NCBI RefSeq assembly: GCF_023330665.1
Contig: NZ_CP097127.1
Coordinates: 930,001 to 994,000 of the forward strand
DNA from: Conexibacter sp. S30A1
GTDB lineage: Bacteria; Actinomycetota; Thermoleophilia; Solirubrobacterales; Solirubrobacteraceae
Direction of reading: 5' to 3'
DNA length: 64,000 nucleotides
The position numbers and the translations under genes were made by a program. Position 1 is the stretch's first letter; the number at the start of each line of letters is the position of its first letter. This document shows, one piece after another, positions 24,714 to 40,031 of this stretch. Under the pieces are notes generated by a model. The model made no database searches, had not been told where the DNA came from, and was given only the letters and a program-made list of their open reading frames with translations.

Positions 24714-24786
24714 GCGCCCGTAGCTCAGGGGATAGAGCGTTCGCCTCCGGAGCGAAAGGCCGCAGGTTCAAATCCTGCCGGGCGCG
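24714..24786 (+). tRNA. tRNA-Arg(CCG)
   Basis: Complete cloverleaf: acceptor GCGCCCG/CGGGCGC, D-arm GCTC/GAGC, anticodon stem TTCGC/GCGAA with loop CTCCGGA (anticodon CCG), T-arm GCAGG TTCAAAT CCTGC, discriminator G, no encoded CCA. Its 3' half is the attachment site of the element that follows, and the integrated copy of the 3' half keeps the gene whole. Confidence 0.97.
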
Positions 24787-24787
24787 T
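24744..24787 (+). repeat. attL: 44-bp tRNA-Arg 3' half, identical to attR
   Basis: Covers the anticodon loop to one base past the tRNA end. The identical 44 bp recurs at 39988-40031; sequences diverge on both sides. Confidence 0.95.
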
Positions 24788-24791
24788 CACA

Positions 24792-24817
24792 AAAGCCCTC
24801 CAAATGGAGGGTTTTTT
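24792..24817 (+). terminator. Bidirectional terminator between tRNA-Arg and the integrase
   Basis: CCCTCC/GGAGGG stem with AAAT loop and six T after it on the plus strand; AAAAG on the other side gives some U after it on the minus strand too. It ends the tRNA transcript and probably the integrase transcript. It lies inside the element, 4 nt past attL. Confidence 0.85.
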
Positions 24818-24822
24818 CATGC

Positions 24823-26184: not shown

Positions 26185-26408
26185 CAGTTACCCCCCTCTG
26201 GTGAGCCGTTGTCTGCCGCCTGCTCACGCTTGCCGAACCGCTCCCACGCCGACTGGCGCGTGATCCCGAGCGCGTCGCCTATCCCCTGCCAGGATGCGCC
26301 CTGCGCGCGAGCCTCGGCGACTAGTGCGCTGATCGCGGTCTGCGTGTTGTCGAGCTGCTCGCGGGCTCTGCGAAGCGCGGCGAGCGTGTCTGATTCGGTA
26401 GCGGTCAT
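26184..26408 (-). CDS. Small helix-turn-helix protein upstream of int
   Basis: 74 aa with a C-terminal HTH (AEARAQGASWQGIGDALGITRQSAWERFGKR) preceded by a helix of the kind in many small actinobacterial DNA-binding proteins. The ATG at 26408 lies 6 nt after a TATCCT box, so translation is probably leaderless; a TTG seven codons upstream lies before that box. Its stop overlaps the int start, so the two are co-expressed. It may control int or act as a directionality factor; this is inferred from position only. Confidence 0.75.
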   Translation of the reverse strand: MTATESDTLAALRRAREQLDNTQTAISALVAEARAQGASWQGIGDALGITRQSAWERFGKREQAADNGSPEGGN

Positions 26409-26414
26409 GCTGTG

Positions 26415-26420
26415 AGGATA
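26415..26420 (-). promoter_or_regulatory. -10 box of the HTH-int operon, leaderless arrangement
   Basis: TATCCT ends 6 nt before the ATG; TGTGAT occurs about 17 nt further upstream, as at mihF. Confidence 0.5.
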
Positions 26421-26579
26421 CCCTGACAAGCGGCGGAATCACAGCGACCCACCGCGAGCCCGTCGAGAACGCGCTGCGAGCAGCCCCGAGCACGTCACCC
26501 GAGGCCGTCGAGACCATCCTGCGCCAGCTCGAAGGCCTCGGCCTTGACACGGCCCAGCGCCGTCGAGAGGATCGCCACC

Positions 26580-26840
26580 ATGACCACGGCCATCAGCACC
26601 GCCAACGCCCACGACGACGGCTACGACCTCGTGCGCGGCACCGACATCACCGGCCCGCGCATCGGCAAGATCTACATGAGCGAAGGCGAGCCTTACCTCG
26701 TCCTCGACGAAGGCGACGAGTACGCGCCCGACACGCTCGCAGACGCCTCGGCGTGGCTGGCAGAGCACGGCTACGTGATCGGCGACGATCCCGACTTCGC
26801 GGCGATGTTCACCACCCCGAGCGCGTCGAGCGTCGCCTGA
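26580..26840 (+). CDS. Small acidic protein of unknown function
   Basis: 86 aa, divergent from int/HTH. Contains GYDLVRGTDITGPRIGKIYMSEGEPYLVLDEGDEY and a helical segment TLADASAWLAEHGYVIGDDPDF. ATG at 26580 chosen over a TTG 12 codons upstream; GAGAGG lies ahead of it. No family recognised. Acidic small proteins in such elements often act as regulators or anti-defence factors, but nothing here shows that. Confidence 0.55.
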   Translation: MTTAISTANAHDDGYDLVRGTDITGPRIGKIYMSEGEPYLVLDEGDEYAPDTLADASAWLAEHGYVIGDDPDFAAMFTTPSASSVA

Positions 26841-26928
26841 CCGAGCGCACCTGCGCCTACCGCACGCCCCAGCAGGCGCAGAGAGCGGCTGAGAGCGTCG
26901 CGCGGCTGGCGCTGAGACCTTCGCGCGT

Positions 26929-27366
26929 CTAACTAAGCGGCGGCTCGGTCGGCTTCGGCTGCCGTGGCGACGTGCTGTGATACACCGACCAGCCCGTGCC
27001 GTTGCACTGGTGGCACGGGAACCAATCCGACGCCTGACGTGGTGCCGTTAGAGCTGGCGGCCGCCAAACCCAGCCACGGCCCGCGCAGTACCGGCAACCC
27101 TCAGCGGGCATATGCACGAGCCACTCGGCACCCTCGGGCACGTCCGCTATGCGCGCGTCATTCGGCGCCAGCTCCACCGGATCACGGCCCTCGAGGCTGA
27201 GACGCTTGTAGCGCGGCGCGAGCCACGCCCGCTCGCCCACCGCCTCAAGCGACATCGCCGCAAGTACGCGCTGGCGCGCCTGCTCGAGCGCGTCGGCCTT
27301 GACGATCACGTAGGAGTCCTGCCGGCGCGTCTGGCCGTCCCACTCGTAGGCGATCCACCAAGACAC
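26929..27366 (-). CDS. Small zinc-finger-like protein with DnaJ-type CxxCxGxG repeats
   Basis: 145 aa. The first half is a compact alpha/beta part (MSWWIAYEWDGQTRRQDSYVIVK). The second half carries CRYCAGRGW and CHQCNGTGW, two halves of a DnaJ-type zinc site. The GTG start is 6 nt after a TAGGCT box. Function unknown; a second element gene (28629-28913) has the same type of motif. Confidence 0.65.
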   Translation of the reverse strand: MSWWIAYEWDGQTRRQDSYVIVKADALEQARQRVLAAMSLEAVGERAWLAPRYKRLSLEGRDPVELAPNDARIADVPEGAEWLVHMPAEGCRYCAGRGWVWRPPALTAPRQASDWFPCHQCNGTGWSVYHSTSPRQPKPTEPPLS

Positions 27367-27372
27367 GGGCGC

Positions 27373-27378
27373 AGCCTA
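27373..27378 (-). promoter_or_regulatory. -10 box of the 27366 gene, leaderless arrangement
   Basis: TAGGCT ends 6 nt before the GTG start. Confidence 0.4.
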
Positions 27379-27448
27379 CGCGCTCCGAGCGCTCGCGTGG
27401 GATCTTCTAGCCGAAGCGCCCCGACCGCGCTCGCCGGCCAGGGCGCTC

Positions 27449-27799
27449 CTAGACGGGGGTGATCGCGAAGTGCTGAGAACTCTCCATGATCGAGACCGTG
27501 AACCGACGCATAAAGTCCCGCCGTCCCCACAGAACTGTGCGCGCCCCGGGAAGGAATATGGGGGCGAACTCAACCACATGCTGCGGGATTTCGGGCACAA
27601 CCGCCGTCGACGCGCGGCTCGCGACGTGCATCGTGAACTCGCCGTTTGCGCCCGTTCCAGTCTCCATTGTTAGGTCTTCGACGCCGTAGCCCATCAACGT
27701 CGCGTACCCAAGTGGCAGCGACGTGCGATCGGCCCCGGAGTCGACCAGGCCCCAGAGGGGGCCGGACTCGCCGTTGATTCCCGTGACTCGCATGACCAA
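27449..27799 (-). CDS. Retropepsin-like (clan AA) aspartic protease
   Basis: 116 aa from a TTG. Shows GLVDSGADRTSLP with the catalytic D20-S-G-A motif and the second family strand near the C-terminus (VLWGRRDFMRRFTVSIMESSQHFAITPV, normally LGRxDFFxRFxVxFD). Retropepsins work as homodimers, so one D-S-G-A is expected. The frame stays open and family-like upstream (IPYRDFGQGGPRP) to about 27871 but has no ATG, GTG or TTG there, so the true start may be a CTG (27871 or 27847). The small gene just upstream is its probable partner. Role in the element unknown; capsid or toxin processing are guesses. Confidence 0.75.
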   Translation of the reverse strand: MVMRVTGINGESGPLWGLVDSGADRTSLPLGYATLMGYGVEDLTMETGTGANGEFTMHVASRASTAVVPEIPQHVVEFAPIFLPGARTVLWGRRDFMRRFTVSIMESSQHFAITPV

Positions 27800-27873
27800 G
27801 TACGGCCGCGGACCACCTTGACCGAAGTCCCGGTAAGGAATCAGGAACGGCTGTGAGGGGAGCGCGGACAGGG

Positions 27874-28074
27874 CTAAAGGATGAACGTCGCGTCGGCCGC
27901 CCGCGGGACGGGAATCAGCGCATCCGTGTCCTGAACCTGCGGATCGTCACGCAATTCTACCGGCGTCAACGCGCTCGCAACGATCCTTCCGTCGCGTACG
28001 GCTACCCAGGCACCCTCGTACGGCGCCAAATCATCCGTTACGAGAGGCTCAGTCTGGATCTCTGTTGCAGACAT
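27874..28074 (-). CDS. DUF5678-like small protein, partner of the protease
   Basis: 66 aa. The core DLAPYEGAWVAVRDGRIVASALTPVEL matches the DUF5678 pattern (L.PY.GKWVAV.DG.VVASG). ATG preceded by GGAGG. It sits directly before the retropepsin-like gene, a pairing I recall from other bacterial genomes but cannot check here. It may be a substrate, inhibitor or adaptor of the protease. Confidence 0.65.
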   Translation of the reverse strand: MSATEIQTEPLVTDDLAPYEGAWVAVRDGRIVASALTPVELRDDPQVQDTDALIPVPRAADATFIL

Positions 28075-28080
28075 TCCATA

Positions 28081-28093
28081 CCTCCATTAGATA
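28081..28093 (-). promoter_or_regulatory. Shared TATCTA-N2-GGAGG start motif, copy 1
   Basis: TATCTA, two bases, then GGAGG just before the 28074 gene. The same 13-bp arrangement precedes the 28913 gene (28922-28934). Confidence 0.35.
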
Positions 28094-28198
28094 CTTGCAG
28101 TCGCGATCAAGCTTCATCCGTTGTTACGGCGCTCGGCCACTGTGCTGCAAACTTTACGCCGCAGCGGCGACTCCGCGTCGCTTCCTAACACTCCCCGC

Positions 28199-28363
28199 CT
28201 ACTTCCAGAGCTTGCGCCACACCCCGGCACGCCCGAGCGCACGGCCCAGCGCCACGTTCTTCGCGCGCCTCGCGGCCCTGGTCGGGCTGCTCAGCGAGCC
28301 GAGGTTGTTTGAGATCCGCGCGGCCCCGTAGAGCTGCGAGGTCAGAGACCGCCTGCGCGCCAT
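28199..28363 (-). CDS. Small basic conserved actinobacterial protein
   Basis: 54 aa, very basic: it begins MARRRSLTSQLYGAARISNN and ends GRALGRAGVWRKLWK. I recognise this as a short family common in actinobacterial genomes and mobile elements, with no known function. ATG preceded by GGAAGGTGA. The 28364-28628 stretch upstream holds no gene that I recognise. Confidence 0.65.
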   Translation of the reverse strand: MARRRSLTSQLYGAARISNNLGSLSSPTRAARRAKNVALGRALGRAGVWRKLWK

Positions 28364-28628
28364 CGTCGTCACCTTCCCGCTTGCATGATGTAGGTGATCT
28401 TCTACCCGATCACAGAGACCACCGCAAGCGCCTCGACGCCGACGGGCCCGGTCCTGCGTGCGCGCCCTGGTGAACGTCCTCGACGGCCTCGGCGCCGCGA
28501 GCGCTGCCCTACCTCGACGGCCTCGACGAACGCAGAGAGCCGACGCCCGCAGGTGACGCCGGCCCTCTACCTTCCGCAACCTCTACCGGCTACACGGTAC
28601 GCGCGAGCCCGGACGCAACCGGATAGCG

Positions 28629-28913
28629 CTACCACACCCCTGCGATAACGCCCGTCGCAAAGATCACGACCGCGAACGCCGCAGCCCCCACGAGCAGCCA
28701 CGCGAGCGCCGCACCGAGCGCAAGCGCCGTGGCCAGCACCCGGACAAAGAGTTGCACGAGTGCCACGCCTCGATGCGTCGAGAGCACCTGCACGCCGCTG
28801 CCGTGGCATCTGCCGCACCTGCCGCCGAGCCGGTTACGCCCCGAGCCGCGGCACCGCAAGCACTCCACCGCGAGCCGTGCGCTTCGCGCATCCGCCTGCA
28901 CCTGTACCGCCAT
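28629..28913 (-). CDS. Zinc-motif membrane protein
   Basis: 95 aa. Residues about 18-42 hold CLRCRGSGRNRLGGRCGRCHGSG, a DnaJ-like two-CxxC site. The rest is hydrophobic (LFVRVLATALALGAALAWLL and AAAFAVVIFATGVIAGVW), giving two likely membrane helices. ATG with AGGAGG ahead. A small membrane protein in a phage element could be a holin-like or exclusion protein, but the zinc motif argues against a plain holin. Confidence 0.6.
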   Translation of the reverse strand: MAVQVQADARSARLAVECLRCRGSGRNRLGGRCGRCHGSGVQVLSTHRGVALVQLFVRVLATALALGAALAWLLVGAAAFAVVIFATGVIAGVW

Positions 28914-28921
28914 GTTGCCCA

Positions 28922-28934
28922 CCTCCTGTAGATA
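28922..28934 (-). promoter_or_regulatory. Shared TATCTA-N2-GGAGG start motif, copy 2
   Basis: Second copy of the motif described at 28081-28093, here before the zinc-motif membrane protein. Confidence 0.35.
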
Positions 28935-28958
28935 GTTGACCTTCAGAGCCTCTGTGCG

Positions 28959-28982
28959 CCCTTCTCCCTTCCCCCTCCCCCC
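28959..28982 (-). other. G-quadruplex-type G-tract
   Basis: The minus strand reads six G, A, five G, AA, three G, AGAA, three G: four G-runs with loops of 1-4 nt, about 45 nt before the 28913 gene on its sense strand. Confidence 0.5.
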
Positions 28983-29050
28983 GGCAAGGCAGACCATCGC
29001 GTCACGCCGTCGAGGGCGCCAGCGAGCCGCTCATGCGCTCAGACGGGCGA

Positions 29051-29740
29051 TCACGTGACCGTCACGACGAGCGTGTCTGACGTGTCGGTGTAGTCCTCGT
29101 CGTAGCTCATGTAGGAGACCGCGATTTCGTAGGTGCCGGCGCTCGGGAACGTCGCCCCGAAGTAGGCCACCGCCTGAAAGCCGCTATTGCTCATCGCCTG
29201 CCCGTCGCCGACGTTCAGAGCGCCCGTCTGGTCGTAGTTCCAGTCCGTCACGGTCACGCCCGCGCTCGGCGTCACGGCGGCCGACAACGTGCCATACGGG
29301 TACTGATCGACGGCCAGCAAGCTCGCCGCGAGCGTCGAGGTCGCGGGCTGCGAGTACACCCAGGGAGTCGTAGGCATCGCTGGCGACCACCCGCCGCCGA
29401 GCAGCACCGAACCGGACGCAGGCTGATCGACGCCCACGATCTGAAGCCCATTGGGCACCACGTCCGGCGCGCTGACCACCATCCCGGCCTTGAGCGGCGT
29501 CAGCCCGCTCGTGACCTGGAAGTTGTCAGAGCCCGCCGAGCACACGACATCGAACGGATAAGTCACGCTCGCCGACCCGAGCGTCAGCACCACCGCCCGG
29601 AGCTGATAGACGTGCGACATTGTAACCCCGCTGGGCGCGCCCGCCAGCAGCGTCACGTTATTCCACATGCGCTCCACGGCCACGCTGCCATCGACGGCGG
29701 TGATCGTCTGCCACACGATGCCCGGAGTGACGCTCACCAC
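29051..29740 (-). CDS. Putative phage structural (Ig-like, beta-rich) protein
   Basis: 229 aa, few charged residues, rich in Ser/Thr/Val. It contains TYPFDVVCSAGSDNFQVT and a C-terminal Ig-like repeat (GTYEIAVSYMSYDEDYTDTSDTLVVTVT). This composition fits a decoration, tail-tip or head-fibre protein, but no family is recognised. The GTG start overlaps the 29734-30042 gene. Downstream, 28914-29050 holds no gene apart from the G-tract. Confidence 0.6.
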   Translation of the reverse strand: MVSVTPGIVWQTITAVDGSVAVERMWNNVTLLAGAPSGVTMSHVYQLRAVVLTLGSASVTYPFDVVCSAGSDNFQVTSGLTPLKAGMVVSAPDVVPNGLQIVGVDQPASGSVLLGGGWSPAMPTTPWVYSQPATSTLAASLLAVDQYPYGTLSAAVTPSAGVTVTDWNYDQTGALNVGDGQAMSNSGFQAVAYFGATFPSAGTYEIAVSYMSYDEDYTDTSDTLVVTVT

Positions 29741-30042
29741 TCACCACCGCCCACGCCGCTGAGCACCAGCGCCGCGTTCACAGCATCGCTCAACCGGCGC
29801 TGAGCGGTTGCCAGCCGTGTTTCCCACCGGGTGACACACTCATCAGCTTCGACGCCCTCTACGGCCAGCGCGGTCGCCTCCTGCGTGGCGTCGTGAACGG
29901 CCCGCGCGTAGTCCTGAAGCGCCCCCGCCACGTACAGATACGCGCTCGGGTCGAGCGCCTCGACGGCCGGGCCCGTGACCTCGTGGCGCGCCTGCTCTGC
30001 GAGCTGCGTGAGCGCCTGGCGTGCGTCCTGGTAACTGCTCAC
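29734..30042 (-). CDS. Small helical protein
   Basis: 102 aa, mostly amphipathic helices (ARQALTQLAEQARHEV, GALQDYARAVHDATQEATALAV, TRWETRLATAQRRLSDAVNAAL). The GTG overlaps the upstream stop by 4 nt, so it belongs to a three-gene operon (30039, 29734, 29051). Possibly a head-assembly or scaffold-type partner; no family match. Confidence 0.55.
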   Translation of the reverse strand: MSSYQDARQALTQLAEQARHEVTGPAVEALDPSAYLYVAGALQDYARAVHDATQEATALAVEGVEADECVTRWETRLATAQRRLSDAVNAALVLSGVGGGEW

Positions 30043-30494
30043 GAGTCACCGCCTTCCATGTCGAAGTTGCCCGGACGGGCGAACACGTCGAGCAGCCATG
30101 CGCGGTCAGCGCGGCCAGCCTGCTCCACCGCTTCGAGCGCCTTGCGAAGCTCAGCCGCGGCAGCCGTGGCGGCCATCGCCGCCGCCGCGGTCGAGCTGGC
30201 CGAGGAGCGATCGACTACACGCGCAAGCGCCACGAGAATCGAGGCCTTGACCCTGGTAGTCGGATCATTCCCCCACCCCTGCACCAGCTCCGCGACATGG
30301 CGCTCAGTCTCGCCGCGCCGGTCAGCGCCAGCCGCGAGAATCCGTTGCACCTTCTGCCTTGAGAGACCGAAATGCGCTGCCGCCTGGTGCTGCGTGCGCC
30401 CTGCGTCCATGAACCGGCGCAGCTCGGCATAACCCGGCTCTGCTCGGCGCTGCTCAGCCTGCGCCCGCTCGACCTGCGTGGCCTCGACGGTCAC
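30039..30494 (-). CDS. HTH protein, possible terminase small subunit
   Basis: About 151 aa. A clear HTH (ELRRFMDAGRTQHQAAAHFGLSRQKVQRILA) is followed by a helical C-terminal part. The arrangement HTH + helices at the start of a structural-gene operon is typical of terminase small subunits, but no large subunit is found. GTG at 30494 chosen because a G-rich Shine-Dalgarno-like tract precedes it; a TTG at 30509 is also possible. Confidence 0.5.
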   Translation of the reverse strand: MTVEATQVERAQAEQRRAEPGYAELRRFMDAGRTQHQAAAHFGLSRQKVQRILAAGADRRGETERHVAELVQGWGNDPTTRVKASILVALARVVDRSSASSTAAAAMAATAAAAELRKALEAVEQAGRADRAWLLDVFARPGNFDMEGGDS

Positions 30495-30669
30495 GCCGAC
30501 CACCCCCAAGCGCAGACCAGACGGGCGCTTGCGCCTGGGCGCACGCGATTGCGTAGGCTCCGGCCCAAGCTTTCGCCTTTATGGCAAAACAGAGAAAGAT
30601 TGATTAGGGCTCGAGTTTCGGGCTTTTCGAGGTCGCTGGGTGAGGGTTGGCGCAGTCCGATGTGCGGTG

Positions 30670-31665
30670 TCAGCTGGCGCGTAGACAGCACTTCTTGTAC
30701 TTGCGTTCGCTTCCGCACCAGCAGGGCTGGTTGCGCTCTGGTGGCCAGGGATGTGTTGTGGTTGTTTTGAGGAGTTCGGTGGCGTAGCTCGCGCGGGTGT
30801 CTGATTGCTCGGGATCGCGGTCGTGCTCGGCGGACCAGGCGAGGTAGCTGTCGATCGTGATTGGCACAAGCGCGAGCCGCGCGACGCCCTGGGCTCTGAG
30901 CTGTCGGAGGAGCAGTTCGAGCCGGGCGCAGTATGCGTCGTAGGGTCCGTGCTCGTAGTCCTCGGCGAAGCTTGGCCAGGTCTCGAGCGCTCGCTGGTAC
31001 TCCTGGGCCGGGAACCAGGCAAGACCGACCGACGCGTGCTTTGGCGGGACCGTCCGCGTGCTCTGGTCTCGGTAGAACGCGTCAACGCGTGCTCGTTCGG
31101 CTCGTTCTTCGCGATCGACGAGTTCTTCAGCTTGGAGTTGCAGTTCGTCGGGTGGTTGGCTGAGCGCGTCGAGGGTTTCGGCTCGCTCGCTGGTGAGCAT
31201 CCAGAGCATGTCGCTGTCGACGTTGGTGGCGAGCGCGAGCGTGAGGCCTTTGGTCTGCCACGGCAACGCCTTGTTGTGCAGTCCGACGTCCGCGTAGGCG
31301 AGGCCCGCTGTTTGGTGCAGCCACGGGTTGCCGGGGTCCTCGCGCTCGGCGTTTAGCCAGGCGATATCGGCCTGGTCTGTGTGTCCTGCGTGCAGCAGCA
31401 GATCGGCGATCAGTGCTTGTGCGCTGGGGTGCTCATCAAGGTCGCCGTCCCATCCAGCGGCGACGGCTTGGCGCATCGCGTCGACCGCTTCGTCGAACCG
31501 GCCGAGCTGCTGGTAGGCATACGCTAGCTCGTCGAGGTACTCCGCGCGGTGCCGCTGCGTCTCGGTTAGTTCGAGCGCGCGCGCGATCAAGCGAACGCGC
31601 GCCGTGTTGTCATCACGCTCGCGGGCGACATCGAGTTCCCGCTCGATCGCTGCGAGGTCAGACAC
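30670..31665 (-). CDS. TPR protein with C-terminal SEC-C zinc motif
   Basis: 332 aa. TPR-like helices (ELAYAYQQLGRFDEAVDAMRQAVAAGWD and neighbours) fill the first half. The last 25 residues hold NQPCWCGSERKYKKCCLR, a SEC-C zinc-binding motif (CxCx8CC). The GTG at 31665 lies 7 nt after a TAGCCT box; upstream codons in the same frame overlap non-coding sequence beside the IS. SEC-C domains occur in SecA and many stand-alone regulators; function here unknown. Likely cargo. Confidence 0.7.
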   Translation of the reverse strand: MSDLAAIERELDVARERDDNTARVRLIARALELTETQRHRAEYLDELAYAYQQLGRFDEAVDAMRQAVAAGWDGDLDEHPSAQALIADLLLHAGHTDQADIAWLNAEREDPGNPWLHQTAGLAYADVGLHNKALPWQTKGLTLALATNVDSDMLWMLTSERAETLDALSQPPDELQLQAEELVDREERAERARVDAFYRDQSTRTVPPKHASVGLAWFPAQEYQRALETWPSFAEDYEHGPYDAYCARLELLLRQLRAQGVARLALVPITIDSYLAWSAEHDRDPEQSDTRASYATELLKTTTTHPWPPERNQPCWCGSERKYKKCCLRAS

Positions 31666-31672
31666 AAGCGGA

Positions 31673-31678
31673 AGGCTA
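31673..31678 (-). promoter_or_regulatory. -10 box of the TPR/SEC-C gene, leaderless arrangement
   Basis: TAGCCT ends 7 nt before the GTG. Confidence 0.45.
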
Positions 31679-31844
31679 GCCTGCGCGTCAGGCGCGGCGA
31701 CCTTGGCGCCGCGCGACGGATCATCCCGCGCCTGGAGCACGGCAAGGAGAAGGTCGCGGCGACCCGAATCTGGTGCGCGACAAGCCGATCTGGCCACGAG
31801 ACGCTGACACGTTCCCGCGGCCCTTTGCACCAGGAGTCGCCGCT

Positions 31845-33164
31845 ATGCCAAGTTCGCTCGCCGGGCTGTTGTCCCTGCTCGCGCCATCCTTCACGCAACC
31901 AACGTTTCAGACGTTCAGCATGCTGGTGGTCGGGATGGTCGGCCGGGTGCGGGACTGCACCGTGACGGGGATGCTGCAGTCCGCCGGGCTCGCGGGCGAG
32001 TGGCATCACAGCCGCGCGCACGACTTCTTCGCCCGCCGACGCTGGGAGCCTGACGAGCTCGGCGTTCGGCTGTTGGACTTCCTCATCACGATGTTCGTCA
32101 AGCCCGACGGCCCGATCCGGTTCGCCGTTGATGACACGCTCTTCGGCCGCTCCGGACGCAAGGTGTTCGGCGCGCACTACCTCCACGACGGCGCGCAACC
32201 CGAGGGATCCGGGCAGCGGACCAGATGGGGGAACTGCTGGGTCGTGCTCGTGCTCGTCGTGGAGCTTCCGTGCCTCGACGGCCGGCAGGTTGGGCTGCCG
32301 GTCCTGTTCCGGCTGTTCCGCCCGAAGGACGAGCAGCATCCGGACCGCCCGTCACAACCCGAGCTCGCGAGGCGGCTGATCGACATGATCCTGAAGCGTT
32401 TCCCGGGCCGGGTCGTGGAGCTGGTGATGGACGGCGCGTACGCCAGCAAGGCGTGGCAAGGGCTACCAGACCGCGTGACGCTCACGACCAGAATGCGCGC
32501 CAACGCGGCCGTGTTCGCGTTCGCGCCGGAACCAACCGGCAAGCGGGGACGCCCAGCGCTGAAGGGCGCCCGGCTCGCGAGTCTCGCCAAGCTCGCCGCC
32601 GCTGCGGCGTTCACGCCGGTCACGGTCACCACCCCCGGCGGCCGCGAGCGGACCGCGCACATCCACGCGTTCACGTGCCTGTGGTACGGGCCGTTACACA
32701 CACGGGCGGTAAAGGTGATCCTGATCCGCAACCCCGGCACCAGCGAAGGGTTCGACATCGCACTCGCGTCAACCGACACGACCGCGACCGCCGCGGTGCT
32801 GATCGCCCGCTACGACAGCCGCTGGACGATCGAGACCTGCCATCAAGAAGCGAAAGCACACGGCGTCGGCGACCCGCGCAACCGCGTCCAGAAAGCCGTC
32901 GAGCGGACCGTCCCGTTCGGGTTCCTCACCCAGACGATCACGATCGCCTGGTACCAACTGCACGGCAACCCCGAAGCCGACCTCAAAGCCCGACGGCGCG
33001 CCGCCCCGTGGTACCGCCAGAAAACCAGCGTCAGCTACACCGACATGCTCGCCACGCTCCGCCGCGAGCTGATCCGACACGAATACTGGGCACAAGCACC
33101 CCAGACAACCACCGAACCACAAATCACGCCCGCCCTGTCACCGTCAGCCCAAGCCGCCGCCTGA
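31845..33164 (+). mobile_element. IS701-like insertion sequence, transposase gene
   Basis: 439-aa DDE transposase (start ATG 31845 with GGAG ahead; a GTG 24 codons upstream is less likely). Catalytic candidates: Asp in RFAVDDTLFGRSG, Asp in LVMDGAYASKAW and Glu in RYDSRWTIETCHQEAKAHGVGD, a layout of the DDE_5/IS701 type. It is the only transposase in the element and runs opposite to its neighbours. A probable right end lies about 33170-33190, but the matching left inverted repeat was not found within 31666-31844, so the IS may be truncated on the left. Confidence 0.85.
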
Positions 33165-33280
33165 GATCACGAAAGTCGAGTTAGGGGCGAGCCGTCCACA
33201 AACAGTAACCGCTTTGGATACCCTGCGCCCCCTTCATGCGTACTGACCATGACACTTACCTGTCAGTGTGACTGTGACTG

Positions 33281-34864
33281 TTAGGCGAAGTTGCCTGCGT
33301 CGTATCCTGCTCCGGTTATGCTGGCGATGCCTTGCGGCCAGATCGGGAAGCAAGCGACGTACTGACGCACGGTAACCCATGCTTCGAGGTTGCCTGCGAC
33401 GCCGCCGGATGGCATGAGTGAGAAGATCGGCTGGCCTGCCATCCACAGCACGTTACTTGGATCGCAGACAATGATCTGATACTGCGATCCTGTGCCGACC
33501 GTTGGAATGTTCAGGTCTGCGAACGCTCGGAGTCCTGCGAAGTTGAGCCCTGAGTAACCAAGCCCGCCTATCTTCTTGGCGTTCTGATCGAGGCTCGGCA
33601 GCGCGACGGGCCTGCCGCTCGCGTCTGCCCACGCGCTCGCGTAGTCAAGCAGCGGGTCTGGAGCGAAGTACGCCGTAGGCCTGATGTAGATACCCGGTGT
33701 CGTGGTCAGTGCCTTGCGAGCCTTCGCCAAGTCACCATACAGACCGCCAACGCCTGACGTGCCGGTCAGAGTGAACGTGCTTATACCTGCGACCGTCTGA
33801 GCTCCTGCGAGCGCCGTAGTGACTGCATACGTGTCATTGTTGGCGTCGAGCTGTGCCCTGAGCTGCCGCATCACAAACTGATCGCCAGTGATTCCGACAC
33901 CGCCAGCACGATCGAGCCAAGCCTGCGAGAGTGTCACCTTGCCCGAGGTCGAGTTGACTGCGACCGTGTTCAGCGTAGCCGTTGGATCAGTGTCGCTGAC
34001 CGAGTTACCTTCGCTCGTGGCGGCCACATCGGTTGCACTCGTGAACGCTGGCACCGCGACTTCCAAGCCGTACTGTGGCAGCGTGAGCGTATCGTTGAGC
34101 TGTGACACGAACGCCGCGAACGGACTGCGGAACGTGGCGAACTGCCGGACGAGCGTGATCGGCGGCACGAACGCAGCCGCGCCGCCCGGCGCGGTCGCCG
34201 AGATGCCGCCGTCGGTGGTCAGTGCTCGCAATTCGTCAGCGATCCGCTGGCGCGCGCCCACCGCTTCAGGATGGCTCGGATTGCTCACGGTCGGGCGATA
34301 CCGAGCCTCGATCCCGCGGGCGATGAACTTGCCGTAGCCGGTCTGGCGCTCGACCGCGCGCATGACGCGCGCGCCGTGGCGCTGTAGACGATCCTGGCGG
34401 TCTCGCGCCTCGTCGTCGCGCCCGAGAACCTGCTGACCACTCGCCTCGCGCAAGGCGTCGCTCAGCCAGCTATGCGGGCTGCCGTCCGCGTAAGGATTGA
34501 CCTCGCGCTCGACCCGGACACGCGAGCGGTACTGCCGCTCGACTTGGCGCAGGTCCGCGTCGGCGCGCAATGCCTCGCGGGCGGCCGTGATCGCGCCCTT
34601 GAAGGTGCGGTAGCTCTGGTCGTCCATGCGGCCGTGCAGTCCGCCTGACCCGAGGAGCACGTCTGCCGCGCGCGCAATGTGCCCGTCGCTGCTCGACGCC
34701 AGCTTCGACCGGATCGCCGAGATCTCGTCGGCACGCACCCGCGCACGCTCCTCGAGCACCAGCTCGGCGCTCACATGCTCCATGACGGCGTTGTCGTTGG
34801 CACTCGGCGCGGCGAGCGCGATGTCGGTGGAAGCGATGACCTTCTTGTCGCTGGTCTTGCTCAT
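33281..34864 (-). CDS. HK97-fold phage major capsid protein
   Basis: 527 aa. The first about 215 residues are charged and helical, as in a delta/scaffold domain. The rest has the HK97-type order: FVPPITLVRQFATFRSPFAAFV, the beta-rich P-domain (EVAVPAFTSATDVAATSEGNSVSDTDPT), the VTLSQAWLDRAG E-loop region, and the end SNVLWMAGQPIFSLMP ... AWVTVRQYVACF. The codon third positions are visibly less GC-rich than in the chromosome. No maturation protease or portal gene is adjacent, which is unusual. The 33165-33280 stretch after it has short inverted and direct repeats (TGACTG, ACTGAC/GTCAGT) and no gene. Confidence 0.88.
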   Translation of the reverse strand: MSKTSDKKVIASTDIALAAPSANDNAVMEHVSAELVLEERARVRADEISAIRSKLASSSDGHIARAADVLLGSGGLHGRMDDQSYRTFKGAITAAREALRADADLRQVERQYRSRVRVEREVNPYADGSPHSWLSDALREASGQQVLGRDDEARDRQDRLQRHGARVMRAVERQTGYGKFIARGIEARYRPTVSNPSHPEAVGARQRIADELRALTTDGGISATAPGGAAAFVPPITLVRQFATFRSPFAAFVSQLNDTLTLPQYGLEVAVPAFTSATDVAATSEGNSVSDTDPTATLNTVAVNSTSGKVTLSQAWLDRAGGVGITGDQFVMRQLRAQLDANNDTYAVTTALAGAQTVAGISTFTLTGTSGVGGLYGDLAKARKALTTTPGIYIRPTAYFAPDPLLDYASAWADASGRPVALPSLDQNAKKIGGLGYSGLNFAGLRAFADLNIPTVGTGSQYQIIVCDPSNVLWMAGQPIFSLMPSGGVAGNLEAWVTVRQYVACFPIWPQGIASITGAGYDAGNFA

Positions 34865-34893
34865 GGTGGTGTCTCCTTGGCCTCTATGGCCGG

Positions 34894-35535
34894 TCAGTGC
34901 CCGCGCCGACCGAAGCGCCGCGGCTCGTTGGTCTGTGAGCGGAGCTGGCCCAGCTCCTCGATGGCGGCGGCAAGCTGCTCGCTCAGTTCGGCGACTTGGC
35001 GGCTGAGCGGCTCGATGGCGGCGTGGACGGCCGCAGACGTGACCTGCTCGACGCCGCTCTTGTCGATCACGTTCAAGCGCCGAAGCGCTGAGCTGATCTG
35101 GCCTATTGCCGGATCAAGCGCGGCCCACTGCTCTGCCAAGTTGCGGGCGAACCGGGCTTGCTCGTCGAGCATCTGGCGCTCGCGCTTCGCAGCATCGTCG
35201 AGCTGCGCCTGCTCTTTCTCGGTGAAGCTGCGTCGGTCCGGCTCGGGCGCGGTCTCGGCCTTTGTGAACACGGTCAGCCGCGGGCGGTCGGCGTCCTTGC
35301 GGGCGGTCAGAAAGCCGCACGAGACCAAGTGCTGAATCCAGATTGACGCCGCGGCGAGGTCCTTGACCGTCGCGCCCGGATAGCGGATCGCAAGGATCTC
35401 CCGCGCAAGCTCGTGGTCAGGATCGGCGCCCTGAGCCGTCCACGGTCCGGGCGGCAGCGCGCGCCAAATCTTCACGAGATCGCTGTGCAGCCGGTCCTCG
35501 GTCGCTGCCTGTGGTCTTGCCTGCGTGATGCTCAT
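34894..35535 (-). CDS. Winged-helix/coiled-coil protein upstream of capsid
   Basis: 213 aa. The N-terminal part (about 15-85) looks like a winged helix (IWIQHLVSCGFLTARKDADRPRLTVFTKAE). The remainder is coiled coil (FTEKEQAQLDDAAKRERQMLDE ... LSRQVAELSEQLAAAIEELGQL). ATG with AGAAGGGC ahead. It could be a regulator or a scaffold for the capsid 30 nt downstream; the sequence does not decide. Confidence 0.6.
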   Translation of the reverse strand: MSITQARPQAATEDRLHSDLVKIWRALPPGPWTAQGADPDHELAREILAIRYPGATVKDLAAASIWIQHLVSCGFLTARKDADRPRLTVFTKAETAPEPDRRSFTEKEQAQLDDAAKRERQMLDEQARFARNLAEQWAALDPAIGQISSALRRLNVIDKSGVEQVTSAAVHAAIEPLSRQVAELSEQLAAAIEELGQLRSQTNEPRRFGRRGH

Positions 35536-35604
35536 GTGCTGCCCTTCTGCGGCTCGTCGCCGCGGTCGCTTGCTCGCTCCCCAGCGGAGCTGTAACGGTC
35601 AAGT

Positions 35605-36168
35605 TCAGTCTGAGGTCGGTTCCGGCGAATGGCATGTTTCGTCACGGGCAGCGATTCGCACGCCCTCGACCCACACGCGCGGCCCGGCCTGCCGAACGCT
35701 CAGACCACGTGCTCGAAGCTGGCGCGCAAGCTGGCGAGCGGTCGGCAGGTCGAGGCGTTCAGCGTCGTCGGTCACGTAGGCGTGCAGCTCAGACGCGAAG
35801 GTGCTCAGAGCCACGCGCGAGCCCGGTGCGCAGGCGATGCGGTCGAGCAAGAACCGTGAGAGCGCGCAGTCTCGGCCGTGGTACCGGCGGTCTGTGATCG
35901 TGATGCGGCGCTCGGGTCGCCGGTGCTCTGCCGGCGGTTTGTCAGGGCTCAGCATCGCCCGCGCCGCTCGCAAGTCCTGCCAAGCGGTCTCCAGCCGTGC
36001 TGTGAGGTCTCTCGTTGGCTCGCGTCGGCACCACGCCCTCGACCGAGCTTCGGCCAACCGCTGCACACGCCCGAGCGCCTGAGCGACCTCCGAAGTCTGA
36101 CTCTCAGGCTGAGGCTTAGTCTTGGCGAAGCTGACGCCCGCGCTAGGTTGGCGCATCGTCGCGGTCAT
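35605..36168 (-). CDS. Protein with phage primase-type C-terminal winged helix
   Basis: 187 aa. The C-terminal 80 residues (LSRFLLDRIACAPGSRVALSTFASELHAYVTDD ... QLARQLRARGLSVRQAGPRVWVEGVRI) resemble the winged-helix domain at the end of phage/plasmid D5-type primase-helicases. The N-terminal half is helical with a conserved-looking RAWCRREPTRDLTARLETAW stretch. Stop overlaps nothing downstream; start overlaps the next gene's stop (ATGA). Probably part of the replication module. Confidence 0.55.
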   Translation of the reverse strand: MTATMRQPSAGVSFAKTKPQPESQTSEVAQALGRVQRLAEARSRAWCRREPTRDLTARLETAWQDLRAARAMLSPDKPPAEHRRPERRITITDRRYHGRDCALSRFLLDRIACAPGSRVALSTFASELHAYVTDDAERLDLPTARQLARQLRARGLSVRQAGPRVWVEGVRIAARDETCHSPEPTSD

Positions 36169-36374
36169 CGGTCGGCCTCGATCTGGTCGAGCGCCTTGAG
36201 CAGCGCGTCGGCGCCGTCGTCGTCAGCGTTGACGGTCAGCCGGCGCTCGTCGAGCGCGATCACGAGCCGCGCGGCGACTGGCACCGACTCGGCAGGCAGC
36301 CCGCGCTGCACCAACTCACTCAGCAGGCGCTCGGCGCCTCGGGAAAACGCCGGCAGCTCGCCCGGATCGCTCAT
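36165..36374 (-). CDS. Small protein of unknown function
   Basis: 69 aa, one predicted helix-strand-helix unit (LLSELVQRGLPAESVPVAARLVIALDERRLTVNADDD). Overlaps both neighbours by 4 nt, so it is a real part of the replication operon. No family recognised. Confidence 0.55.
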   Translation of the reverse strand: MSDPGELPAFSRGAERLLSELVQRGLPAESVPVAARLVIALDERRLTVNADDDGADALLKALDQIEADR

Positions 36375-36718
36375 CGCGCAGCCCCCGACTTGATCGGCAG
36401 CAGCGGCGCCGTCTGCGGCAGTTGCTCACGTCGCCGGCGTCGAGGCGCAACCGGCGCAGGCTGGCGCTGACGCTCGGTGCCGTCGAGCTTGTCGAGCACC
36501 TGCGGCCAGCGGAACGCCAACCGTGGACGGTCGCCGTCGCCGAGTCGCACGGCGCCCAGGCGCTCGCCGTGCGCGTAAACGAAGTCGCGCGAGCGTCCGA
36601 GGCGCCGCGCCAGCTCTGAGGCGTCGATCAGCTCGCCAGCAGCGCGAGCCGCGAGGCGGTCAGCGATCAAGTCCGCGAGGCGCTCAAGCTGCTCGCTGGA
36701 GAGGTCGAGCGCGCTCAC
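36371..36718 (-). CDS. Excisionase-like DNA-binding protein (MerR-type wHTH)
   Basis: 115 aa with LIDASELARRLGRSRDFVYAHGERLGAVRLGDGDRPRLAFRWPQVLDKL, the HTH_17/excisionase pattern common in actinobacterial integrative elements. A basic Pro/Arg-rich tail follows. Overlaps both neighbours (ATGA). It could be the recombination directionality factor or an operon regulator; its place in the replication operon, 10 kb from int, fits either. Confidence 0.7.
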   Translation of the reverse strand: MSALDLSSEQLERLADLIADRLAARAAGELIDASELARRLGRSRDFVYAHGERLGAVRLGDGDRPRLAFRWPQVLDKLDGTERQRQPAPVAPRRRRREQLPQTAPLLPIKSGAAR

Positions 36719-37056
36719 GGCCGCTCCAGTTCAGCCGCGGCCTCGGTGAGCAGGCGATGGCTGGCCGCACCCAGGCTTGCGACCCGCCTGAGCACCTGCC
36801 GCACCCGCTCCCGTTCATCAGTGCCGAGTGCGTGCTCATGATCTAGGGCTTGGTCTGCCAGCGCCGACCACGCGCCCAGATCCGCCGCCTCCTCGGCCAA
36901 CTCGGCCACATGGCGCCGGACACCGATCCACGCCCAGGAATCGCCGTACTCTGCCTGTCCAGCGTCGAGGCGCGCGAGCGCCTGCTCGACGAAGGCAAGA
37001 TGGCCGCACGACGCCTCAGCCAAGAACCGCCGCCCACGGACGCTGTCACGGCTCAC
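36715..37056 (-). CDS. Small all-helical protein, possibly MazG/dATP-pyrophosphohydrolase-like
   Basis: About 113 aa. YGDSWAWIGVRRHVAELAEEAADLGAWSALA shows the E-x2-EE-x2-D spacing of all-alpha NTP pyrophosphohydrolases, frequent in phage genomes. GTG at 37056 chosen because it overlaps the RepA-like gene stop by 4 nt (GTGA) and has GGTGGAG ahead. Assignment rests on a short motif only. Confidence 0.5.
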   Translation of the reverse strand: MSRDSVRGRRFLAEASCGHLAFVEQALARLDAGQAEYGDSWAWIGVRRHVAELAEEAADLGAWSALADQALDHEHALGTDERERVRQVLRRVASLGAASHRLLTEAAAELERP

Positions 37057-38456
37057 AGCTCCACCTGCCATCCGAGGCACCGCTCGCAGCGGTAGCCGTC
37101 ACCCAGTCCGCCGTCCTGGCAGCTACAGACCTTCACGTCCCGAGCCGGAACACGCTCACGCTCTAGCGTGCTCGCGGGCTCCGTGTCCCGTGTCTGTTCG
37201 CTCCTAAAGGAGCGGAACACGGGAACACGGTCGCCCGGTAGCGTGTTCCCCTCGGCAGGAACACGGTCGGAACACGCTTGGAACACGGGAACACGGTCGC
37301 CGTCGTAAGGCGCGACGAGCACGTGCAGATTCGCGGTCCCGGAACGCTCAACACGGACGTGGCCCTCGGTAATCAGCAGGTCAAGCGCAAGGTCTACGTA
37401 CTGTGCCTTGGCGCCTGCCGCGGCCCGAATGGCGCGCTTGGACAGACCGCCTGGTGCCTCCTCAAGCGCCCGGCAGATCCGCTCCATGATGTGCGTCGGC
37501 CGGAAGCTCGCGCCCCTGGCGTGCGCCTCGGGCGGCTCTAGCGACAAGCTCACGCGCCCGCCGTCGAGACTCGCTGCGCGCAGCGTGGCGACCACCCCGT
37601 CCTGCGCGAACTCGCGCACACCACCTGGTCGATCCTTTTGGACCTTGACCGTGGCAACCCCGTCGTGTCCGCGCCCGAAGGGCTCGACCACTTCTAGCGT
37701 GTACGCGACATCGACGCCGGCGAGCTTGTGCTGCGCCCCGATCGCGTAACGCCCGCGCTGCTCCTTGTCCTTGACAACATGATCGAGCGCCAGCGACGGG
37801 CTGCCCGCCCGCAGGACCCTGCGCGGCAGCAGGTCGAGCCAGGCGGCAGCGTCGGAGTTGTCGAGCGGACTGAGCCCCTGGAGCGCGAAGCTCTCCGTTA
37901 CGCCGTCCACGATCGAGAGGACCGGCTTGTGCGCCAGAGCCGCATCGAGCGCCGCGACCGCACCGCCCGCGAGCGGCTCGTCTGGCCGGATGTAGACAAA
38001 GCCCTGCCGGATGGCTCCTGGCTCGACGCCGAGCGCGCGGAGCCGCCCGACGATCTCCGTGGCGCCAGCCTCGAAGTCGAGGTAGAGCACCGTGCGGCCG
38101 GCGTCGAGCTGCTCTGCGCACGCGAGTAACGCGAACCACGTTTTCAACGCCTCCGGCTCGGCGCTGACCCAGTGCGAGCGCCCCACGTACATCAGGCAGC
38201 GGCCGTCCTCGCGGGCCAGCATCGTCGGCGCTGGTGCCACGTAGTCACCAGCGAGCACGTCTGCGAGGTCTACGGGCGCCCAGCTCGTTAACCCGTCGGC
38301 GCTGGGCGCCTGGATTACCTCAGGCGCGGGCGCTGCGCTCGACGGTCCGTGCTTGCGCTCCGCGAGCCATGCATCAGCACACTGGGGATGCATGGTGCCG
38401 GTCTCCCCCTCGTTGAGCGGCCCGCCGCACCTGTAGCACTCGGACGCGGCGCTCAC
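37053..38456 (-). CDS. RepA-like AAA ATPase (helicase-type replication protein)
   Basis: 467 aa. N-terminal Cys/His cluster (C7, C10, H23, C26), then an AAA_25/RepA-like core: AEPEALKTW at 99-107 stands where GEPxxGKTW is expected, followed by VLYLDFEAGATEIVGRLRALG, the Walker B VLSIVDGVT and the sensor-like SLALDHVVKDKEQRGRYAIGAQHK. A winged helix (about 325-380) and a C-terminal CxC..CxxC zinc motif complete it. The conserved glycine of the P-loop is Leu here. The 3' part of the gene carries seven GGAACACG repeats, which may be the element's replication origin. GTG start overlaps the previous gene. Confidence 0.8.
   Translation of the reverse strand: MSAASECYRCGGPLNEGETGTMHPQCADAWLAERKHGPSSAAPAPEVIQAPSADGLTSWAPVDLADVLAGDYVAPAPTMLAREDGRCLMYVGRSHWVSAEPEALKTWFALLACAEQLDAGRTVLYLDFEAGATEIVGRLRALGVEPGAIRQGFVYIRPDEPLAGGAVAALDAALAHKPVLSIVDGVTESFALQGLSPLDNSDAAAWLDLLPRRVLRAGSPSLALDHVVKDKEQRGRYAIGAQHKLAGVDVAYTLEVVEPFGRGHDGVATVKVQKDRPGGVREFAQDGVVATLRAASLDGGRVSLSLEPPEAHARGASFRPTHIMERICRALEEAPGGLSKRAIRAAAGAKAQYVDLALDLLITEGHVRVERSGTANLHVLVAPYDGDRVPVFQACSDRVPAEGNTLPGDRVPVFRSFRSEQTRDTEPASTLERERVPARDVKVCSCQDGGLGDGYRCERCLGWQVEL
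37147..37295. repeat. Iteron-like array of GGAACACG octamers
   Basis: Direct copies start at 37147, 37214, 37222, 37258, 37269, 37280 and 37288; one inverted copy CGTGTTCC is at 37242. Three are spaced exactly 11 bp apart and two pairs are adjacent. A longer 22-bp block (37213-37234) recurs at 37279-37300. All lie inside the RepA-like coding region. Confidence 0.75.
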
Positions 38457-38689
38457 GTCGTCACCTGCGCGCGCTCGGGCCGAATCTCACGAACCTCGCG
38501 CAGGTTGAGAAGGCGGTCGCCCATCGGCACGGCTAGGCCGTTGACCGTCCGCTCACACCGCGAGCACCAGATGAGCCCTTGCGAGACCGACACGTCAGCC
38601 GTGAACGCGCCCCCTGAGCGCGGGATCACCAGCGACCGGCCGACATGGCGGGCGCCGTCAGCGTGTGCGCTAGCCGCTGTAGGATTCAT
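38453..38689 (-). CDS. Small CxxC protein of unknown function
   Basis: 78 aa from ATG 38689 (GGAG 9 nt ahead; an ATG five codons upstream is possible). One CSRC pair in a beta-rich part (GLIWCSRCERTVNGLAVPMGDRLLNLREVREI). Overlaps the repressor gene upstream and the RepA-like gene downstream. Confidence 0.5.
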   Translation of the reverse strand: MNPTAASAHADGARHVGRSLVIPRSGGAFTADVSVSQGLIWCSRCERTVNGLAVPMGDRLLNLREVREIRPERAQVTT

Positions 38690-38966
38690 GGTGACCGGCT
38701 CCATCGGTCAGCTTCTCGGCGTCAGCGTTGCCCGCGCTGGCGCCGTTTTCGTTGGCACTACGTCGCTGCTCGCCGTCGTCGCCCGCGAGCGCGGCCAGCA
38801 GTCGCGGCAGCACGTTGCTTCGTGCGGGCGCGTAGCCCTTTTCCAGAACCGCCACGTAGCCGACCGAGCAGCAGGCTCGACTGGCGAGCGCCTGCTGACT
38901 GAGCCCGGCAGCGTGGCGCGCCTCAGCTAGGAGGCGTCCGAGGTCACTGCTTTGATTTCTTTTCAT
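38670..38966 (-). CDS. XRE-family HTH regulator
   Basis: 98 aa: SSDLGRLLAEARHAAGLSQQALASRACCSVGYVAVLEKGYAPARSNVLPRLLAAL is a Cro/C1-type HTH; the tail is disordered. It heads the replication operon and faces a divergent gene whose ATG overlaps its own (CATG at 38964-38967), so it probably acts as the element's control switch. Confidence 0.75.
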   Translation of the reverse strand: MKRNQSSDLGRLLAEARHAAGLSQQALASRACCSVGYVAVLEKGYAPARSNVLPRLLAALAGDDGEQRRSANENGASAGNADAEKLTDGAGHHESYSG

Positions 38967-39774
38967 GACAATCCACCAGGGCCGAAGTGGGGTCGAACTT
39001 CGCACGCGAGCGCTGCGAAGCGACGGCGCGACGGTCCTTGTGCCGGCGCCCGACAGCCCCGCATGGATGCGCCTTAGAGCGGAAACTCGCTCGCGCATCG
39101 CCACCGTGGCGCTGCTGGCGTCAGAGCGGTTTTCTGTCACTGACATGCGGCGACTCGTCACCCGTGGCGCCCAACAGCCCGACGGCAGCGTCAAGCAGTG
39201 GCTCCGGCAGGCGCGCGCCGTCGGCTTGCTTCACGAGCCAGCGGCCAGCAGCGACCTGCAAGCGGCGGCCTACGCGCAGCGGCGTGCTGAGCAGGCATGG
39301 CACGCGCTGCATAACACGCTTGCGCGCTTCGTCGAGGCCAACGGCGGCCCGAACAGGTCTCCGGCTGACCTACGCCGGCTGGCCGAGCGGGCGCCGGCCA
39401 TCCTCAACGCCCAAGCCACGTACCACGCGACGCTGGCAGACGCCCTCGAAGCCAGCACCGTAGAGCCCCGCCCGTCAGCCGCCGAAGTCGAGGCCTGCCG
39501 CCAGCGTGCCCGCGACCTCAAGACACGGGCACGCGAGGTCGGGCTCGACAATCTGCGCCGCGAGCTTGACGCCCGCGCCAGACGGCCCCCCGCCGTCCGG
39601 TCAGGGTCCGATAGCGCCCTGGAACGGGCCGCGGCGGAGTGGGCGCGACTGCATGGCGAGCACCTGGAGCCCGTCGCTCGCCTGGACGTCGATCACGGCA
39701 AGGCCATCGCCCGAGGCGACGCGACGGCCGGAGCTGACCGACACGCGCACCGCGGCTGGCTCGACGCCGCGTAG
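38965..39774 (+). CDS. Winged-helix-like protein, divergent from the repressor
   Basis: 269 aa from ATG 38965; ATG 39067 or GTG 39040 would remove an N-terminal stretch without clear structure. RSRIATVALLASERFSVTDMRRLVTRGAQQPDGSVKQWLRQARAVGLLHE is a winged-helix-like domain; long helices follow (AQRRAEQAWHALHNTLARFVEANGG; ACRQRARDLKTRAREVGLDNLRREL). Last gene before attR. Possibly a replication or transfer initiator; no family recognised. Confidence 0.6.
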   Translation: MTIHQGRSGVELRTRALRSDGATVLVPAPDSPAWMRLRAETRSRIATVALLASERFSVTDMRRLVTRGAQQPDGSVKQWLRQARAVGLLHEPAASSDLQAAAYAQRRAEQAWHALHNTLARFVEANGGPNRSPADLRRLAERAPAILNAQATYHATLADALEASTVEPRPSAAEVEACRQRARDLKTRAREVGLDNLRRELDARARRPPAVRSGSDSALERAAAEWARLHGEHLEPVARLDVDHGKAIARGDATAGADRHAHRGWLDAA

Positions 39775-39987
39775 ACGCCGACCGTCCACTACGGGCCTGT
39801 AGCCGCGACAGGCGCCAGGCTTCGCGCCGGCCCGGATTCGCCTCGGATTGATTGGGCACTAGAGCGATTCTGGTGCCCAAACGCCGCCGAATCCGGGCCT
39901 AATCGCGCCTAATCCGCGACGGGCGAAAACGTCGAATCGCCTGCAAAAGCTAGGTTTTACGGGCATTTTCGGTAGTCCGGTGAGTGT
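39775..39987. other. Non-coding right arm of the element
   Basis: No gene seen. Holds an inverted arm repeat TTGGGCACTA (39852-39861), a direct TGGTGCCCAA (39871-39880) and two GCCTAATC octamers ten bp apart (39897-39904, 39907-39914). Likely integrase and accessory-factor binding sites. Confidence 0.6.
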
Positions 39988-40031
39988 CCTCCGGAGCGAA
40001 AGGCCGCAGGTTCAAATCCTGCCGGGCGCGT
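39988..40031 (+). repeat. attR: 44-bp copy of tRNA-Arg 3' half
   Basis: Identical to 24744-24787. The 5' half of the tRNA is absent, so this is a non-functional tRNA remnant. Confidence 0.95.

Follow-up and report, generated by a model that had tools for sequence, protein, structure and literature searches.

The initiator helicases of staphylococcal pathogenicity islands (SaPIs) and phage-inducible chromosomal islands (PICIs) use a C-terminal domain to recognize iterons directly 3′ of their own gene (PMC6092414, PMC7581432). The isolated C-terminal domain of Cch2, from the staphylococcal cassette chromosome mec (SCCmec), binds direct repeats just downstream of the cch2 gene (PMC7581432). P4 alpha is a single protein that joins a Toprim-type primase and a helicase to a winged helix that binds the origin repeats, and pRN1 orf904 has a C-terminal winged helix and an origin candidate, a 100-bp stem-loop, directly 3′ of its gene (PMC4234260). 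The iterons of lambda O and of the lactococcal TP901-1/Tuc2009 (P335) organisers lie inside the coding sequence of the binding protein (PMC7466680, PMC8965321). Here we analyzed a 64-kb stretch of Conexibacter sp. S30A1 DNA (GCF_023330665.1, NZ_CP097127.1, positions 930,001 to 994,000 of the forward strand), called the window below; all coordinates are positions in it. The window contains an integrated, phage-like element of 15.3 kb (24744 to 40031), which lies between 44-bp exact direct repeats at tRNA-Arg(CCG). The element's RepA/DnaB-like gene (rep) has an octamer array in its 3′ end. We suggest that these octamers are very probably the binding sites at the replication origin of the element and that the rep product, a helicase-like protein, would bind them.

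The octamer GGAACACG occurs exactly eight times in the window, seven times in direct and once in inverted orientation, and all eight copies lie within 37147 to 37295. The mean chance expectation for the window is 2.2 copies, and none of 100 shuffles reached eight. In the 3.46-Mb genome there are 117 copies, 8 of them in the array. No other cluster was present among the first 100 matches listed, where the tightest other pair was 249 bp apart. Three copies are phased at exactly 11 bp, and two pairs are offset by 8 bp (Table 1). A first-pass annotation, made from the letters alone, had described these octamers as a 149-bp array that was far beyond chance; both the arrangement and the excess were confirmed, and the octamer is not equally dense across the genome. 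On the coding strand, the extended iteron is CCGTGTTCC, and the layout is +0 +8 +19 +30 -46 +66 +74, palindrome CGCTCCTTTAGGAGCG, -106 (one mismatch), +141.

The same annotation held that the protein sequence does not force the repeats. We shuffled the synonymous codons of the gene while keeping the protein (n = 500), which gave at most three copies of GGAACACG and at most four of any clustered octamer, against eight in the real gene. The array is therefore a DNA-level feature. The copies also occupy all three reading frames, so the protein does not demand them, in agreement with the earlier claim.

The rep gene encodes a protein of 467 amino acids. AlphaFold, with a 75-sequence alignment, confidently predicted a RecA-fold ATPase and a winged helix at residues 321 to 380 (pLDDT about 95). 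The predicted winged helix consists of helices 321 to 332, 340 to 347, and 351 to 363 and of wing strands 367 to 372 and 375 to 380. Its coding sequence lies directly upstream of the array, and the tail, predicted to be disordered from residue 390, holds most of the array-encoded sequence. A fold search of the PDB returned KaiC, and a profile search returned RecA, KaiC, and RAD51. In homologues, a DnaB N-terminal domain or a Prim-Pol domain precedes the same ATPase, and these fusions therefore support a role as a replicative helicase. The AAA_25 match, the RecA/KaiC fold, and the fusions in relatives indicate a hexameric-type helicase/ATPase core with a presumed helicase activity, and the model places a winged helix at the C terminus, as in initiator-helicase origins. 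Past the array, the open reading frame (ORF) ends in a Cys-rich motif, CSCQDGGLGDGYRCERC (37077 to 37127). Ends of the form C-x-C...C-x2-C likewise follow the arrays of loci L002 and L009, and such an end may be the reason for the open frame across the array in the window's lineage.

We collected rep homologues from relatives of the host, GTDB genomes, IMG/VR, and isolated phages. The IMG/VR set comprised the best 80 matches per search, and IMG/VR holds several hundred further loci. The nearest named relatives of the gene in genomes are from Thermoleophilaceae and Solirubrobacterales, and matching loci occur in the host's own order and family. Homologues with an octamer array at the corresponding place were found in Actinobacteria and phages. 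In a first survey, of 88 usable nonredundant loci, we compared the best array near the rep stop codon (about 450 bp or less away) with everything else from -3.5 to +3 kb; the former scored higher in 76 loci (median score, 7.5 versus 4.0). In a second survey of 87 further unique loci, the best array near the stop codon outscored all else within ±2 kb in 77. Homologous rep genes without repeated DNA had been named as a finding that would refute an origin; the two surveys instead came out in its favor. Short iterons lie directly 3′ of the initiator gene or in its 3′ end. Among the high-scoring arrays of the first set, 62 were past the stop codon and 12 were inside the ORF, and the in-ORF array of the window is therefore the minority state.

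The octamers differ between loci (CCTCGTCC, CGTGTCCC, CCCTTTCC, GTGGTTCC, CCGATCCC, CCGTTCCG, and others). Despite this divergence, one layout recurs on the coding strand. Direct copies stand at about 0, +11, and +22, and an inverted copy is near +30 to +37. Next come two direct copies 7 to 8 bp apart (near +47 to +65), a small palindrome, and a second inverted copy (near +76 to +85); a further copy often lies beyond. The spacings of same-orientation octamers peak at 10 to 11 and 7 to 8 bp. Of 147 arrays, 78 have a palindrome with an AT core, compared with 36 of 1,284 control windows. All motifs were fitted to one register seeded from CCTCGTCC, and some may be misplaced.

Seven apparent exceptions that we inspected by eye (L014, L028, L039, L046, L057, L068, and L102) carry the layout in a degenerate form. 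In L038, a canonical array (CGTGCCCC, 10 copies, plus the palindrome) is displaced about 2.8 kb past the rep stop codon by other sequence, and this locus is a natural test of array function at a distance. Some 2.2 to 2.4 kb before its rep stop codon, L046 also has a dense array of another kind, unrelated to the layout, in which GCGACAGC is repeated 14 times within about 200 bp. L030 and L031, on a single contig of Janibacter terrae (NZ_BCUV01000006.1), are two rep loci separated by about 44 kb; their match statistics are equal, and they are perhaps tandem prophages. In the isolated Streptomyces phage Dagobah (L021), a ACCGGTTC array at the end of a RadB-like gene runs into the stop codon; this phage is a convenient laboratory system. 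We considered a concerted replacement of the octamer in a clade of closely related phages and rejected it, because both variants are mixed within each array, as at a degenerate position.

The octamer sequence follows residues of the predicted winged helix. Whole-domain Mantel tests were set aside: motif distance tracks winged-helix distance and ATPase distance alike (partial r, 0.19 and 0.26). Because these tests fail to isolate the winged helix, column-wise tests were needed. We compared about 270 variable protein columns with the octamer sequence after regression on ATPase distance. Columns 344, 355, and 351 ranked highest (r = 0.54, 0.42, and 0.41; 68 loci), and the permutation maximum had a 95% value of 0.27 and a largest value of 0.40. 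Columns 344 and 355 were family-wise significant at 39 dereplicated loci (P = 0.017 and 0.044).

Among 55 dereplicated loci, Glu344 together with Arg355 went with a central CG in 24 of 25, and other residues did so in 8 of 30 (P = 8e-8; the link was first noticed on the initial set and then counted on the enlarged one, so this P value was not preregistered). Below 55% identity, the counts were 12 of 13 versus 2 of 19. Within the Glu344 group, Ala351 had T at position 7 in 13 of 13 loci and Arg351 had C in 4 of 4. Several loci outside the original set agree: L007 (EAR) and L166 (EGR) with CCTCGTCC, L205 (ERR) with CCTCGCCC, and L009 (RAD, as in the window) with CGTGTCCC. This covariation suggests a partly readable protein-DNA code.

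Strict DnaA boxes (TTATCCACA) also gather at the arrays of relatives. We counted 32 in the 64 kb within 150 bp of arrays versus 12 in 998 kb elsewhere in the loci, an approximately 40-fold higher density. Such boxes were found in 5 of 50 lineages against an expectation of 0.18, although the observed count takes any member of a lineage and the expectation one locus per lineage, which favors the claim somewhat. The loci with a box next to the array are L109, L194 to L240, L018, L048, L079, L205, and relatives.

How does the window locus compare with the described systems? It shares with SaPIs and PICIs a probable initiator helicase, short iterons directly 3′ of or at the end of its gene, and an integrative phage-related element, with integrase, attachment sites, and a rep module in an island of about 15 kb; binding to the iterons is presumed here. 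However, PICI origins have two iteron sets that flank an AT-rich region. The array in the window has two octamer groups and a small palindrome, and the AT content of the array is 32 to 36%. The motor of SaPI Rep is of the AAA+ type, whereas the motor here has a RecA fold (AAA_25/DnaB-like). The Cch2 locus is similar in its repeats just downstream of the gene and in its C-terminal DNA-binding domain, but Cch2 is a 3′-5′ helicase with 5-nucleotide iterons (AAGTG), whereas the motor here has a RecA fold and the iterons are octamers whose layout is more elaborate. P4 alpha, with its ori and crr sites, likewise combines helicase and winged helix in one protein. The P4 origin repeats are of octamer length, and its helicase belongs to superfamily 3 (SF3), in contrast to the RecA fold here and the DnaB-N or Prim-Pol fusions of relatives. 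The window system probably works like the SaPI/PICI/SCCmec group. Given the differences in motor, domain fusions, octamer layout, and AT content, we do not file the element as a PICI.

Other systems were compared as well. Lambda, TP901-1, and Tuc2009 share iterons within the initiator gene. However, lambda O and the organisers recruit a separate helicase, and lambda has an AT-rich region by its iterons, which the window array lacks. The pRN1 locus resembles ours in the C-terminal winged helix, in the 3′ origin candidate, and in extended hairpin potential (the window array folded as single-stranded DNA gives z = -4.7), but in pRN1 the stem-loop lacks iterons and the protein is of the prim-pol/SF3 type. 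RSF1010 RepA is a RecA-fold hexameric helicase that acts with a separate RepC initiator and RepB primase. The RecA fold is supported here, the window protein itself has the predicted winged helix, and no separate RepC or RepB was found among the scanned element proteins. Mycobacteriophage RepA (PMC7157519) has an N-terminal helix-turn-helix (HTH) and was set aside as a different kind of protein.

The first-pass annotation had put the array forward as a possible origin of the element, by analogy with iterons in or next to the rep genes of phages and plasmids. The proposal itself is supported by the conserved layout, the octamers that track winged-helix residues, and the DnaA boxes by relatives' arrays. 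Its model needs two refinements: the in-gene location is the minority state, and the initiator-helicase origins of PICIs, SCCmec Cch2, and P4 are closer than those of iteron plasmids.

We infer protein-DNA binding, its stoichiometry, helicase activity, the melting site, and origin activity as follows. After excision or induction, the RepA/DnaB-like protein would bind the octamers through its C-terminal winged helix, probably with one monomer per octamer. The phasing of about 11 bp would put the monomers on one face of the helix, and the inverted and paired copies may help to nucleate a hexamer. The DNA would open at or near the palindrome. In this scenario, initiator and replicative helicase would be one polypeptide.

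Several observations weigh against an origin at this array, or at least against an active one. The array lacks an AT-rich stretch, the element has no DnaA box, and its GC skew has no minimum at the array. In phage MinS1 the GC skew is monotonic and uninformative. In phage Dagobah the skew minimum is about 2 kb from the array, a rough agreement that is confounded by a gene-strand switch. Column covariation loses significance at the 23 to 28 most divergent loci. When single positions were left out, single residues predicted the base no more accurately than the commonest base did, and the residue code is therefore partial. Finally, the second Gly of the P-loop (38136 to 38162) is replaced by Leu (AEPEALKTW, compared with GESESGKTW in most family members). 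Leu is also present in L016, and Ala or Met in other relatives; the P-loop Lys and other invariant residues are retained in the window protein. Because of this substitution and the insertion sequence (IS) in the element, the window copy may be inactive.

Four other explanations of the array were weighed. The octamers could be operators, without origin function, to which the protein or some other regulator binds to repress transcription of rep or of downstream genes. Phased short repeats by a winged-helix gene could indeed be autoregulatory, and most relatives have the array between rep and the gene that follows. However, the array is at the 3′ end of the gene rather than at a promoter, no sigma-70-like promoter was found in 36600 to 39300 (a weak test in this host), the partner is helicase-like, and DnaA boxes flank the arrays of relatives. 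We consider operators unlikely. It is quite improbable that another initiator, such as the HTH protein of the element, binds the array as an origin and recruits the helicase indirectly, as lambda O and P do. That ori-lambda lies inside its initiator gene (PMC7466680) fits this arrangement, but the octamer covaries with recognition-helix residues of the winged helix fused to the helicase, and array and helicase co-occur across DnaB-N and Prim-Pol fusions.

A partition or incompatibility site resembling a parS centromere is very improbable. Mycobacteriophage parS sites likewise have eight 8-bp direct repeats, but the repeats here covary with the DNA-binding domain of the helicase itself, an integrase gene and attachment sites are present in the element, and no ParA or ParB match was found among the element proteins scanned. 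Neutral or protein-driven expansion of short repeats, for which the predicted disorder of the tail would allow, is effectively refuted by copies in three frames and both orientations, by synonymous shuffles that never match, and by arrays outside the ORF, with a recurring layout, in most relatives.

We found no description of this class of origin in the open-licence literature searched, and a 2022 study of a related phage helicase noted that AAA_25 proteins lack a described function (PMC8965321). Our data give one AAA_25 branch a specific and testable role, in which the helicases would initiate replication and recruit themselves. They also place a probable origin in many sequenced actinobacterial phages that had none annotated. 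The chances seem evenly balanced that these loci form a large class of phage replicons that has not been described before. In such a class, a replicative helicase with a RecA fold (DnaB/AAA_25-type) would have its own winged-helix origin recognition, and the specificities of origin and protein would co-evolve through a small code in which octamer positions 5, 6, and 7 are read by residues 344, 355, and 351. If so, dozens of self-initiating and probably orthogonal helicase/origin pairs would exist in nature, with GC-rich origins opened at a palindrome without an AT-rich element. A partly readable code would be useful for origin prediction, for understanding which phage replicons are compatible, and for engineering orthogonal replicons in laboratory actinobacteria.

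Table 1. Features of the element and of the octamer array (window coordinates)
Feature	Position	Strand	Basis
tRNA-Arg CCG	24714-24786		tRNA prediction
Left attachment-site repeat, 3′ part of tRNA-Arg CCG	24744-24787	+	44-bp exact repeat of 39988-40031
Integrase, left end of element	24823-26184	-	PHROG_1 integrase, E 2.4e-60
Transposase, apparent IS insertion	31773-33164		DDE_5
RepA/DnaB-like initiator-helicase gene, 467 aa (RecA-fold ATPase, C-terminal winged helix, disordered tail; predicted)	37053-38456	-	AAA_25 (Pfam); PHROG_695 DNA polymerase/primase; AlphaFold and fold matches
Iteron GGAACACG	37147-37154	+	Sequence search
Degenerate inverted iteron, one mismatch	37182-37189	-	Layout position -106
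Palindrome CGCTCCTAAAGGAGCG, coding-strand core CTTTAG	37199-37214	.	Sequence
Iteron GGAACACG, abuts palindrome, 8 bp to next copy	37214-37221	+	Sequence search
Iteron GGAACACG	37222-37229	+	Sequence search
Inverted iteron	37242-37249	-	Sequence search
Iteron GGAACACG, 11-bp phased series	37258-37265	+	Sequence search
Iteron GGAACACG, 11-bp phased series	37269-37276	+	Sequence search
Iteron GGAACACG, 11-bp phased series	37280-37287	+	Sequence search
Iteron GGAACACG, 8 bp from preceding copy	37288-37295	+	Sequence search
Winged-helix DNA-binding domain (predicted), residues 321-380	37317-37496	-	AlphaFold; covariation with octamer
Putative base-reading residue 355	37392-37394	-	Covariation
Putative base-reading residue 351	37404-37406	-	Covariation
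Putative base-reading residue 344	37425-37427	-	Covariation
HTH regulator	38670-39194		
Right attachment-site repeat	39988-40031	+	44-bp exact copy of tRNA 3′ part

The tRNA was the sole match of an Rfam search. Given the apparent IS insertion, the element may not be intact. The product of 33281 to 34864 looks capsid-like by eye and has no Pfam or PHROG match. One protein, encoded at 34894 to 35535, has a weak match to virion-structural proteins.
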